A DNA stretch of 64,000 nt. Origin: Rhodamnia argentea (lineage: Eukaryota > Streptophyta > Magnoliopsida > Myrtales > Myrtaceae). A model generated the notes under the pieces. The model had not been told where the DNA came from, made no database searches, and was given only the letters and a program-made list of their open reading frames with translations. The stretch's first letter is position 1. Each line of letters begins with the position of its first letter. The stretch is taken from positions 32,101,826-32,165,825 of the forward strand of contig NC_063150.1 in assembly GCF_020921035.1 (NCBI RefSeq), in the 5' to 3' direction. The position numbers and the translations under genes were made by a program. Positions 28,708-32,255 of the stretch are shown here, piece by piece.

Positions 28708-29342
28708 AATGATTAAAGGATAAGTGGCACTATCACAGGACCTACATGGATCAGTGGTTGGGATCAAAAGTCCGAAAAATCATTGAATATACACCATTGG
28801 ATGTACAACGCTAGTCATTATCGGCCAGAACAGATTTCAATCCCAATTCAAGTGAGTGAATCATTTACATGATCAGTTGACCATCACGTGCGCAGACATG
28901 GGCACTTCTACTGTACCTTTCAAAATGACAAGTAGTCCCAAATTGAACCGATTCACCCAAAAAAATTTGCATCAAGAGGACAAAGTACTACTAAAAGTTC
29001 AATCACAAAAACATCAGGGTCTTTGCTCAGTTTGTCATCCTTTGTTTATCCCTTTCTTGGCCTCGCGGGTCGAATTCCTTTGCTTGATTTCGAACATCTT
29101 ACCACAAGATCATCCGCTGGCAATGCCTGAAAGCTTAATTAAGTTGAGGCTGCTATGCATACATGTATCAATCTGTCAATAGCACTGCTAAAAGTACCAA
29201 TGCAATTCACAAGTGTTTGCTAAAGCTGGTAAAGCTGTAGAGATACATATATTTCCAAGAAGAAAGAACGAAACAGAGGAGGGAAAAGGAGAGCACCAGC
29301 TCAAGATCAATGAGAGAAAAAAAAAAAAGAGGCAGGAATATA
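28708..29342. other. Downstream part of the minus-strand snoRNA transcription unit, or intergenic
   Basis: No coding frame of substance on either strand. It lies downstream of the second snoRNA candidate in the transcribed direction and may hold the end of the host transcript. A short segment (about 29098-29121 on the minus strand) is flanked by AG and GTAAG and could be a micro-exon, but this is not supported further. Confidence 0.35.
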
Positions 29343-29429
29343 GTTCCCTCAGAAACCAAATATGAAGAGATCGTTCAAATCATGGGATGATCAGCATTAG
29401 CATGGTATATCCCAAACATCACAGGGAAC
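29343..29429 (-). ncRNA. C/D-box snoRNA candidate, guide matches U6 snRNA
   Basis: On the minus strand: terminal stem GTTCCC (29429-29424) pairing perfectly with GGGAAC (29348-29343); C box GTGATGT (29422-29416, 6/7 to RTGATGA); D' box CTGA (29394-29391); C' box ATGATTT (29383-29377); D box CTGA (29352-29349) directly next to the closing stem. Length is 87 nt. The guide just before D' reads CCATGCTAATG. Ten of its bases (CCATGCTAAT) complement the conserved U6 snRNA stretch ATTAGCATGG, and the fifth base upstream of D' pairs with the A corresponding to human U6 A53, a known 2'-O-methylated site. I found no target for the D guide (ATATTTGGTTT). Box layout and stem are seen directly; the target is inference from remembered U6 sequence. 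Confidence 0.65.
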
Positions 29430-29788
29430 AATCTGCAGAATCCAGAAAACAAGATTCTTCAATGAATTATAGGAACCCAAAATGTTTTCTTTTTAATATC
29501 ATATATACGATTAACTATTTTCGCCAGTATTTTCAAATATTTTTTTATTATTCATTATTTTATAAGAACAAAAACGATCATTTTTCAAAGAACCTTGAGT
29601 TTTTTCGCAAAACAGAGGCACCTACGAAAGCAGAAATCAAGAAATCTGAAAGCAGAGCATGTTCTTTTTCCTTCTGGCCACAAGCACAGAACAATTCTTT
29701 GAAACAGCCCTTCTTCACTGAGCCTCAAACGATGGATTTCAGCATCGAAAAGAGCCGTTCGAACAGACAGAAACCATCCGAATTCAAT

Positions 29789-29877
29789 TCCCTCAGATCA
29801 AGTGGAAACATCTTTTTTTTCAATCACATAAAGGTCAGGTATACATTAGCATGGTTCAATTGAAATCGTCATTGGGA
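29789..29877 (-). ncRNA. Second, paralogous C/D-box snoRNA candidate, guide matches U2 snRNA
   Basis: It has the same architecture as the unit at 29343. On the minus strand: stem TCCC (29877-29874) with GGGA (29792-29789), C box ATGACGA (29872-29866, 6/7), CTGA as possible D' (29838-29835), C' GTGATTG (29827-29821), and D CTGA (29796-29793). It is about 89 nt long and shares the ACCATGCTAATG segment with its neighbour, so the two look like duplicates. The D guide ends CACTTGAT, an 8-nt complement to U2 snRNA ATCAAGTG, and the base five upstream of D would pair with the A equivalent to human U2 A30, also a known 2'-O-methyl site. The U6-like segment sits five bases farther from its CTGA than in the sister copy, so that guide may not work here. 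Confidence 0.52.
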
Positions 29878-30312
29878 GCATAACCTATGCAGTCTCCTCA
29901 AGAATCCATCAACGCTGAAATGAAACGACGGAAATCAAAATAAGGCGAAACCCAGAAATCTTCCCGGATCGACGAAGGAAACCATCCAGCATCGTAATCC
30001 GCTTGTGAAAGAAAAAGAGGTTGACTTTCAGGGCTCAGATAAACGTTGGAAACAAGAATTCAACTCCCTGACCTGAGACAGGCCTCGTAATGAGCTGGGA
30101 TTATGAACATTTATCATCACTGCTAAAATCACCTCCACAAATAACGACGACGACGACAGTAATCATCCATCGAACAAAGAAGCAAAACGGCGCGAAAACA
30201 GAGGAATTAGCAGGAAAAGAGAGAGGGTTTGCCAAGAAGGACTCGTGGAAACGAGCAAGAATCGCTTGACGGCTTCCGCTGCAAGACGGCAGCGAAGAGG
30301 TTGAAGGGGGGG

Positions 30313-30376
30313 TTTTATAGAGAGGGACGACGAGAAGCTCGACTTAGGGTTTTGCTCTCTAATGGGCCATGGGCCC
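30313..30376 (-). promoter_or_regulatory. Telo-box / site II / TATA promoter of a minus-strand unit
   Basis: On the minus strand, in order: overlapping site II motifs (GGGCCCATGGCCCATT, 30376-30361), a telo-box AAACCCTAA (30352-30344), and TATAAAA (30319-30313). Transcription should start about 30 nt farther, near 30285. This combination is characteristic of plant ribosomal-protein, translation-factor and snoRNA genes. The unit leads into the two C/D-box candidates and has no protein-coding frame, so a snoRNA host gene is the best reading. Confidence 0.65.
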
Positions 30377-30614
30377 AACACTTATCGGGCCTAAATGGAT
30401 CTTTGGGCTTGCATTGGTTTTTTAATTTTTTTTTGTTGGGTCAGAGGCTTGCATGGTTTAATTGCTTGTTTTGCATGCTGATTGCTCAGGGCCCTTAATT
30501 AAAAAAGAATTAAGCAACAAGTTATTTTGTCTACCTTTCCTATCCAAATGAAAAATAATATATAAATCAACGTATCAACATCGGTATCTTTCAAAGTGAC
30601 AAGCACGGGAACTT

Positions 30615-31010: not shown

Positions 31011-32255
31011 TTAATGGACTGGACTCTTGGGCCTCACCTCAATGCCTTCAACCACAAGCCCACCCTTCAGCTGATAGCCCTTCACTTGCTTCAAGCTCAT
31101 CTTCACCTCCCCATCCCCATCCCCATCACCATCACCAACCTCGCCAATGAAGAACTCTCCAAGCTCAACCTCCATCCAACCATCCTCTCTCTCGCCCGGT
31201 GCTTTACCGCCTCGGCTATCGCGTTCCGTCTCCCAATGCTTCCTAAGCATCTCAGACCGGTTCGCGTACAACAAGCTCTCGAGGCAGCGTTTCCTCTGGT
31301 CGGGACATTGCAGACGAGCCGTGCCGGGTCGAACCCAGTTCCCCATCTCGACCGACGTCTCGAAGGGCATCAGGTCGAGCCCGAAAGCGCTGTCGGAGAC
31401 CTTGAAGATAAGGTGCGCCCCGTAGAGTGTGTGTGGCGATAGGGCTTTGGTTTCGATACTCCCTTCGATTTCTATCCGGTCGATTGTTCTAAGCTCGGCC
31501 ACCTCTTTGAACCTGCTAGAGAAGATAGGAGCAAAAATTATAAGAACAAGCATTGTCAATTGTCATCCGAGTTAGACTTTTTTTTTTTTTTTTCCTCTGG
31601 TCAAACCATGACCGATGAATTTTTCAAACTCTCTCTGTCGAGGTAAAAAGCATTGCCATCAACATCAGAGTCCAGGCTCTGACCTCATCATGCAGTGATC
31701 TGTTTGAAGATCAAGAGATTCAAGACGACAAGAAAATAAAAATGGAAGAACGGAGATTCAAAATCTTGCCTTGACTCAGGCAGGGTTTTCCAGATCCAAT
31801 GTGTGGGATCATCGCTCCACTTTATGGAGAGCTCTCTTGCTGATAATATGAACGACACCGTTCCGGCTGATCTCTCCAACTTGAAGCTCTGAGGGGGGGC
31901 AAAGAAACATCAGATATCATTTCAAAGGCATGACTTTTTATCATAACCAAGAAACAACTCGTCGTGTGGGAATTCTCACCTTTCTGCCGCCATCTACGAG
32001 AAGAGGGCGGTCGCAGAGCCGAAGGAAGAGCTCCTTCTTCGAAGAGAACTCGACTGGAGCAGCCGAACCAGAGATGATGCCGGCGTGATTAGGCGGCAAG
32101 AATCGCGCCCAGAGGACGTCGGACTCGGCCGCCGACAGGAACGTGGAGGACACGAGGGAGAGCCGGCATGCCTCGGCCGGAGACGTGAAGGAAAGGATCA
32201 TCGAAACGCAGCTTTCTGGCAAGGCATCCATGCCGGTCCGCACCGACATTCCCAT
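31011..32255 (-). CDS. F-box protein of the PP2-B (phloem protein 2-like) family
   Basis: Three exons, 32255..31980, 31888..31770 and 31512..31011, giving 298 aa. The N-terminal F-box (DALPESCVSMILSFTSPAEA through VLWARFLP) is followed by the PP2 lectin-like domain (RKLSxR-type segment SFKLERSAGTVSFILSARE, then WIWKTLPESRFKEVAEL). F-box PP2-B proteins join SCF E3 ligases through SKP1, and the PP2 part can bind glycans. Intron 2 uses a GC donor (AAG|GCAAGA), the only way to join the conserved ESR-FKEVAEL in phase. A GDGDGDGDGE run sits near the C-terminus. M at 32255, 32249 or 32231 could each be the start; I use the longest. The first intron is GT-AG. Function inferred from family. Confidence 0.9.

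Follow-up and report, generated by a model that had tools for sequence, protein, structure and literature searches.

A probable polycistronic box C/D snoRNA gene of Rhodamnia argentea with snoR69Y, snoR53Y and a snoR53Y-like unit, predicted to act mainly on rRNA

In the available part of the Arabidopsis 2′-O-methylation map (PMC8053127), 18S A801 is assigned to SnoR53Y and 18S A796 is assigned to SnoR25, and both nucleotides are methylated. U6 A48 is also assigned to SnoR53Y, and this site is detected by RiboMeth-seq. 25S C2949 is methylated in the same map and is assigned to SnoR69Y, while the guides of U2 A31 are SnoR125 and SnoR31. Among the assigned rRNA sites, 100 of 104 have at least 9 bp of pairing. 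In the available part of another report (PMC2780460), an snR53-type RNA of Neurospora has one D′ guide for both 18S Am793 and U6-Am47, and human SCARNA9 is placed beside Neurospora CD29, U2-Am31, in a table row. The combination of site II, defined as TGGGCY, Telo-box and TATA box is described as a hallmark of polycistronic snoRNA promoters in plants, according to the accessible text of PMC4660826.

Here, the window is the whole stretch of DNA that was analysed, 64,000 nt of the R. argentea genome. It contains a cluster of three box C/D snoRNA units, all on the minus strand, each with C and D boxes and a short closing stem. The features of the cluster are as follows.

30363–30377, minus strand: site II elements, TGGGCC at 30377–30372 and two GGCCCA (reverse complement) at 30375–30370 and 30368–30363 (pattern scan).
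30345–30352, minus strand: Telo-box AAACCCTA (pattern scan).
30314–30319, minus strand: TATA box TATAAA, upstream of snoR69Y by about 190 bp (pattern scan).
30027–30127, minus strand: snoR69Y, box C/D snoRNA, first gene of the cluster (cmscan RF01198, 62.2 bits, gathering 45).
29786–29879, minus strand: proximal unit, box C/D snoRNA, snoR53Y-like, by predicted target the counterpart of SnoR25 (cmscan RF01279, 34.2 bits, gathering 43; boxes).
29839–29854, minus strand: proximal D′ guide CCATGCTAATGTATAC, 16 bp with 18S, fifth base A796 (pairing against 18S copy L028).
29797–29804, minus strand: proximal D guide CACTTGAT, 8 bp with U2, fifth base A31 (taken as human A30), weak (pairing against U2 copy L018).
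29342–29429, minus strand: distal unit, snoR53Y, box C/D snoRNA (cmscan RF01279, 65.9 bits, gathering 43).
29395–29405, minus strand: distal D′ guide CCATGCTAATG, 11 bp with 18S, fifth base A801, and 10 bp with U6, fifth base A48 (pairing count).

Upstream of snoR69Y, the order is site II, Telo-box and TATA box. This is the order of the plant TeloSII polycistronic snoRNA genes, in which several snoRNAs follow on the same strand, and no difference from them is seen. Nine Telo-boxes are present in the window, and only the one at 30352–30345 has site II within 100 bp, at a distance of 10 bp. The earlier note described a twin pair of box C/D units 450 nt apart, each carrying boxes C, D′, C′ and D, a stem that closes next to the boxes, and ACCATGCTAATG as a shared segment. 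All of these are present on the minus strand, and the 5′ ends of the proximal (29879) and distal (29429) units are indeed 450 nt apart. The third gene, snoR69Y, and the promoter with site II, Telo-box and TATA box had been missed. With its own promoter and snoR69Y, the locus is therefore a three-gene cluster, not a twin pair. The partners of snoR53Y appear to differ from plant to plant, since the available part of PMC5122169 describes another cluster, in which it is joined with U29a and U29b.

The covariance search proposed in the earlier note separates the two units. When the window is compared with Rfam, only snoR69Y and the distal snoR53Y match above the cut-off, and the proximal unit stays below it. 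No tRNA genes are found in the window. snoR69Y corresponds to Arabidopsis SnoR69Y and RF01198 (yeast snR69) with no difference seen, and its C box does not deviate from TGATGA. By analogy to the Arabidopsis assignment, its predicted target is 25S C2949.

The distal unit has the C-like box GTGATGT, CTGA at 29394–29391, the C′-like box TGATTT and D box CTGA at 29352–29349, and is closed by a 6-bp stem, GUUCCC/GGGAAC. Its match to RF01279 has an E-value of 1.7e-10 in the window and 2.1e-10 in the whole genome. Against snoU6-53 (RF00377) it reaches 24.4 bits, below the gathering threshold of 36. The distal unit is like Arabidopsis SnoR53Y and RF01279 (yeast snR53) in the model match, in 18S A801 and in the second target U6 A48, and no functional difference is seen. 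The whole-genome search for snoR53Y at E up to 10 gives five matches, among them L012 and L013 with E-values of 0.67 and 5. L012 contains no recognisable snoRNA in the part read. Matches under the cut-off are also obtained with the same setting in 11 of 14 control genomes, so the weak matches carry little information.

The proximal unit has the C-like box ATGACGA, D′ box CTGA at 29838–29835, C′ box TGATTG and D box CTGA at 29796–29793, and its closing stem is of 4 bp, UCCC/GGGA. The C boxes of the proximal and distal units are each one base off TGATGA. The E-value of the proximal unit against RF01279 is 3.9e-4 for a 1.6-kb stretch and 0.02 genome-wide, and its score against snoU6-53 (RF00377) is 19.2 bits, below the gathering threshold of 36. 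When the two units are compared segment by segment as putative tandem duplicates, 674 and 343 of 1000 shuffles align as well in the two inner segments, and 29 and 3 of 1000 in the two stem segments. Outside the boxes, stem and guide, the proximal unit is no more like snoR53Y than shuffles are. Stable folding on their own is not expected of C/D snoRNAs, and folding of the three units shows no notable advantage over shuffles (z of −0.81 for distal, +1.13 for proximal and −1.32 for snoR69Y).

Pairing was counted from the base adjoining D or D′, and the targets were U6, U2 and 18S of R. argentea, whose searched genome comprises 346.7 Mb in 74 contigs. The U6 sequence is one of 24 matches in the genome. 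There are 26 matches for U2, of which four (L018–L021) were read and L018, with the site ATCAAGTG, was used for pairing; L019 is a diverged U2 copy with ATCATGTG in place of the site. The 18S sequence comes from a single rDNA copy (L028) that is partly decayed, and A796 and A801 were numbered from the distance of 5 nt between them together with the published list of guides, rather than by a count along the full 18S. Positions of U2 and U6 were counted on the genome copies, and the published letters are present at all 15 published sites used; G84 is taken as a U6 site since the text counts eight sites in U6. We take plant U6 A48 to be human A53 and plant U2 A31 to be human A30, as counted on the human sequences.

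The shared segment ACCATGCTAATG is at 29406–29395 in the distal unit and at 29855–29844 in the proximal unit. In the distal unit, it is directly followed by CTGA. The D′ guide here makes 11 contiguous pairs with 18S CATTAGCATGG, and the fifth base is A801. Positions 2–11 of the same guide make 10 pairs with U6 ATTAGCATGG, and the fifth base is A48. In the proximal unit, the core is set off from D′ by the five additional bases TATAC, which pair with 18S as well. The D′ guide makes 16 contiguous pairs with 18S GTATACATTAGCATGG, starting from guide position 1, with the fifth base on an A that precedes the target A of the distal D′ guide by 5 nt. The guide is shifted by 5 nt between the units, in agreement with the distance of 5 nt from A796 to A801, and this distance is what lets the core fit the two 18S sites. 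In both units, a stretch of at least 9 nt directly upstream of D or D′ is antisense to a target, with the fifth base on a nucleotide that is methylated in Arabidopsis.

In the shuffle test, runs were allowed to start from guide position 1 or 2. Over U2, U6 and a 600-nt part of 18S, none of 1500 shuffles reaches the 16-bp or the 11-bp run with 18S by Watson-Crick pairs; if G-U pairs count, the rates are 0.0007 and 0.023, respectively. The 10-bp Watson-Crick run with U6 is found in none of 20000 shuffles at the 15 published U2 and U6 sites (0.00075 with G-U).

The earlier note assigned the distal segment directly before CTGA to U6 A53 (plant A48), and the 10-bp pairing bears this out. This U6 target is not new, because Arabidopsis SnoR53Y is already assigned to U6 A48, and rRNA is a target of that guide as well. 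snoR53Y of R. argentea probably marks U6 besides rRNA, as in Arabidopsis. The claim that the guides point at snRNAs rather than rRNA does not hold: the two D′ guides fit 18S (16 bp at A796 and 11 bp at A801) better than U2 or U6, the two snRNAs compared. The sequence ATTAGCATGG is present in both U6 and 18S of R. argentea, which makes a case for checking apparent spliceosomal guides against rRNA first.

The proximal D′ guide is predicted for the same 18S A796 as Arabidopsis SnoR25, and the two are likened by target only. The D′ box of SnoR25 is described as degenerate in the available part of PMC8053127, whereas that of the proximal unit is CTGA. SnoR25 is not listed for U2 in that part of the guide list, whereas the proximal D guide weakly pairs with U2.

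Taken together, the locus is very probably a polycistronic gene of the standard plant type, encoding three box C/D snoRNAs mainly for rRNA. From the family matches, boxes, motifs and complementarity, the following course of transcription, processing and methylation in R. argentea can be proposed. RNA polymerase II would start at the promoter with site II, Telo-box and TATA box (30377–30314, minus strand) and produce one precursor, which would be cut and trimmed into snoR69Y, the snoR53Y-like unit and snoR53Y. Each snoRNA would form a snoRNP with fibrillarin, and 2′-O-methyl groups would be placed five bases from the D or D′ box. The predicted sites are 25S C2949 for snoR69Y, 18S A796 for the proximal D′ guide, and both 18S A801 and U6 A48 for the single D′ guide of snoR53Y. 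The core that abuts D′ in snoR53Y and sits 5 nt off in the proximal unit would thus serve two 18S sites, and the proximal D guide may reach U2 A31 too. The cluster is predicted to be an ordinary TeloSII polycistron, in which members of two known families are joined by a snoR53Y-like unit for 18S A796, and it adds a well-formed example of plant snoRNA polycistrons.

Besides hitting itself, the cluster sequence has matches at one duplicated locus, C1:4585309–4586534 (two candidates were scored in the first pass). The duplicated locus has two tandem partial copies of the part with snoR69Y and the proximal unit, and none of its three matches reaches the snoR53Y part. This tandem (L011, G000:C1:4584822–4587909) is partly decayed, with the proximal unit damaged and the snoR69Y part well kept. 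In copy 1, most of the proximal unit is missing. Copy 2 is the sole paralogue that retains the segment, and it has CAGTTGCT in the place of the D guide, so that the U2 pairing is not kept. Viral contigs scanned for U6, U2 and 18S patterns and for the proximal guide with its D′ box have none of them. The proximal guide with its D′ box was seen in one cyanobacterial contig among the genome contigs, which is taken as chance.

The proximal D guide had been placed on U2 A30 (plant A31) in the earlier note. The fifth base lands there as claimed, but the run is only 8 bp and weak, short of the 9 bp looked for in a guide of U2 A31. This is the same U2 position as that of Arabidopsis SnoR125 and SnoR31 and of human SCARNA9. 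The D guide of the distal unit makes 11 bp with U2 including four G-U pairs, and its fifth base is another published site, C29. This run needs G-U, and its shuffle rate is 0.005 at known sites and 0.11 at any position. In the RF01279 consensus, conservation is weak over the region of the D guide.

Other candidates for U2 A31 were searched for in the genome. A match to snoR31 is present with 51 bits, and beside its D-like boxes there is no run of at least 7 to the seven U2 sites tested. The U2-guide families of Rfam are not among the matches of the permissive search. Pattern searches gave three places against one in the reversed control, and a second pattern gave one against one; none of the three places matches an Rfam snoRNA family at E up to 0.5. 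One unannotated C/D-like place with TGATGA and CTGA, L041 1494–1575 (G000:C5:27527619–27527685), makes nine pairs with U2 A31 including one G-U, a slightly better fit than the proximal D guide, while L040 makes eight pairs. L041 has no Rfam snoRNA match, and its flanking stem, judged by eye, has eight positions with one mismatch. L041 may be a better guide of U2 A31 in the R. argentea genome.

If the two units were a dedicated scaRNA-like pair for spliceosomal RNAs, as originally supposed, their targets would be U6 A53 and U2 A30, not rRNA. The 10 bp at U6 A48 and the 8 bp at U2 A31 are on sites both methylated in Arabidopsis, in the accessible portion of PMC8053127, and the snoR31 match here lacks the U2 run even though Arabidopsis SnoR31 is a listed guide of U2 A31. 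However, both D′ guides pair longer with 18S, from position 1, and the U2 run is shorter than the 9 bp reached by 100 of the 104 Arabidopsis rRNA sites in the same portion of PMC8053127. Besides, it is absent from copy 2 of the duplicated locus, and L041 pairs better with the same site. Such a pair is highly improbable. The polycistron for rRNA could instead be extended by a real U2 target, making a cluster of dual specificity, in which snoR53Y would act on 18S A801 and U6 A48 through D′, and the proximal unit on 18S A796 through D′ and on U2 A31 through D. The eight Watson-Crick pairs are on a known U2 site and are reached at a rate of 0.0003 in 20000 shuffles at the 15 published U2 and U6 sites. 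But this rate becomes 0.015 with G-U, and when runs may fall anywhere on U2, U6 or the 600 nt of 18S, it is 0.02 in 1500 shuffles, or 0.57 with G-U; the competing targets compared are these three. The dual specificity of the cluster is less likely than not, and U2 A31 as a target of the proximal D guide is likewise possible but weak. In the available part of PMC9512776, human METTL4 methylates U2 A30 only if it is 2′-O-methylated, and m6Am in U2 is made by Arabidopsis METTL4. U2 A31 is worth testing because of this requirement of METTL4. If the U2 pairing is real, the proximal unit would hint at a possible source of the 2′-O-methyl group that human METTL4 needs before the N6-methylation of U2 A30.

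The proximal unit could also be a decaying duplicate without function. Its C box ATGACGA is imperfect, its stem has only 4 bp, its score is under the Rfam cut-off and its folding is weak (z +1.13), and in the two duplicates found on its contig the corresponding segment is lost or damaged. The D′ guide nevertheless keeps 16 contiguous pairs with 18S, while the guide is broken in copy 2, where the segment is still present, and the decay of the proximal unit is improbable. Returning to the polycistron with functional units, it can be speculated that the 12-nt core is used at 0 and 5 nt from D′ for neighbouring 18S bases and that the same RNAs modify regions of U6 and U2 that are central to their function. 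This is rather unlikely as a whole. If true, a single promoter would control the modification of both ribosome and spliceosome, and the cluster would be needed for U2 Am31, which corresponds in position to human A30, the METTL4 site.

A poly(A)-ended LINE-like element is present at one fixed position of 18S in all nine distinct rDNA copies with the 3′ junction read. The nine copies correspond to 13 junction rows minus four repeats of the same copy, drawn from 40 probe matches.

G000:C6 and C17 (L022–L027, L032–L038, L028 and L044): loci of the LINE-like element.

The tails differ among copies in sequence and poly(A) length. The 5′ junction of L028 and the 3′ junctions of other copies fit a target duplication of about 14–16 bp. 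In one copy, 10 of 30 listed open stretches were searched and four matched, RVT_1 twice and zf-RVT under the cut-off and DUF4283 above it; four whole ORFs of this copy are without a Pfam family. Among the titles listed in a literature search by title, none describes an 18S-targeted LINE-like element of plants. It looks like either a plant non-LTR element that targets 18S or a single insertion that has multiplied along with an inactive rDNA block, and intact 18S copies may exist besides those read.

An ORF is found at 31011–31559 on the minus strand, just upstream of the cluster, and its product resembles a PP2-like lectin protein. A 158-aa ORF on the plus strand at 29387–29863 was discarded, as it overlaps both the proximal and distal snoRNAs. 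Between these two units, the region 29770–29647 (minus strand) is well preserved in each of the partial duplicates, more so than the proximal unit. It has no Rfam family above the cut-off. The region folds as a long hairpin (29655–29800; z −0.98, 37 of 200 shuffles as good), and is possibly an unrecognised H/ACA-like RNA.
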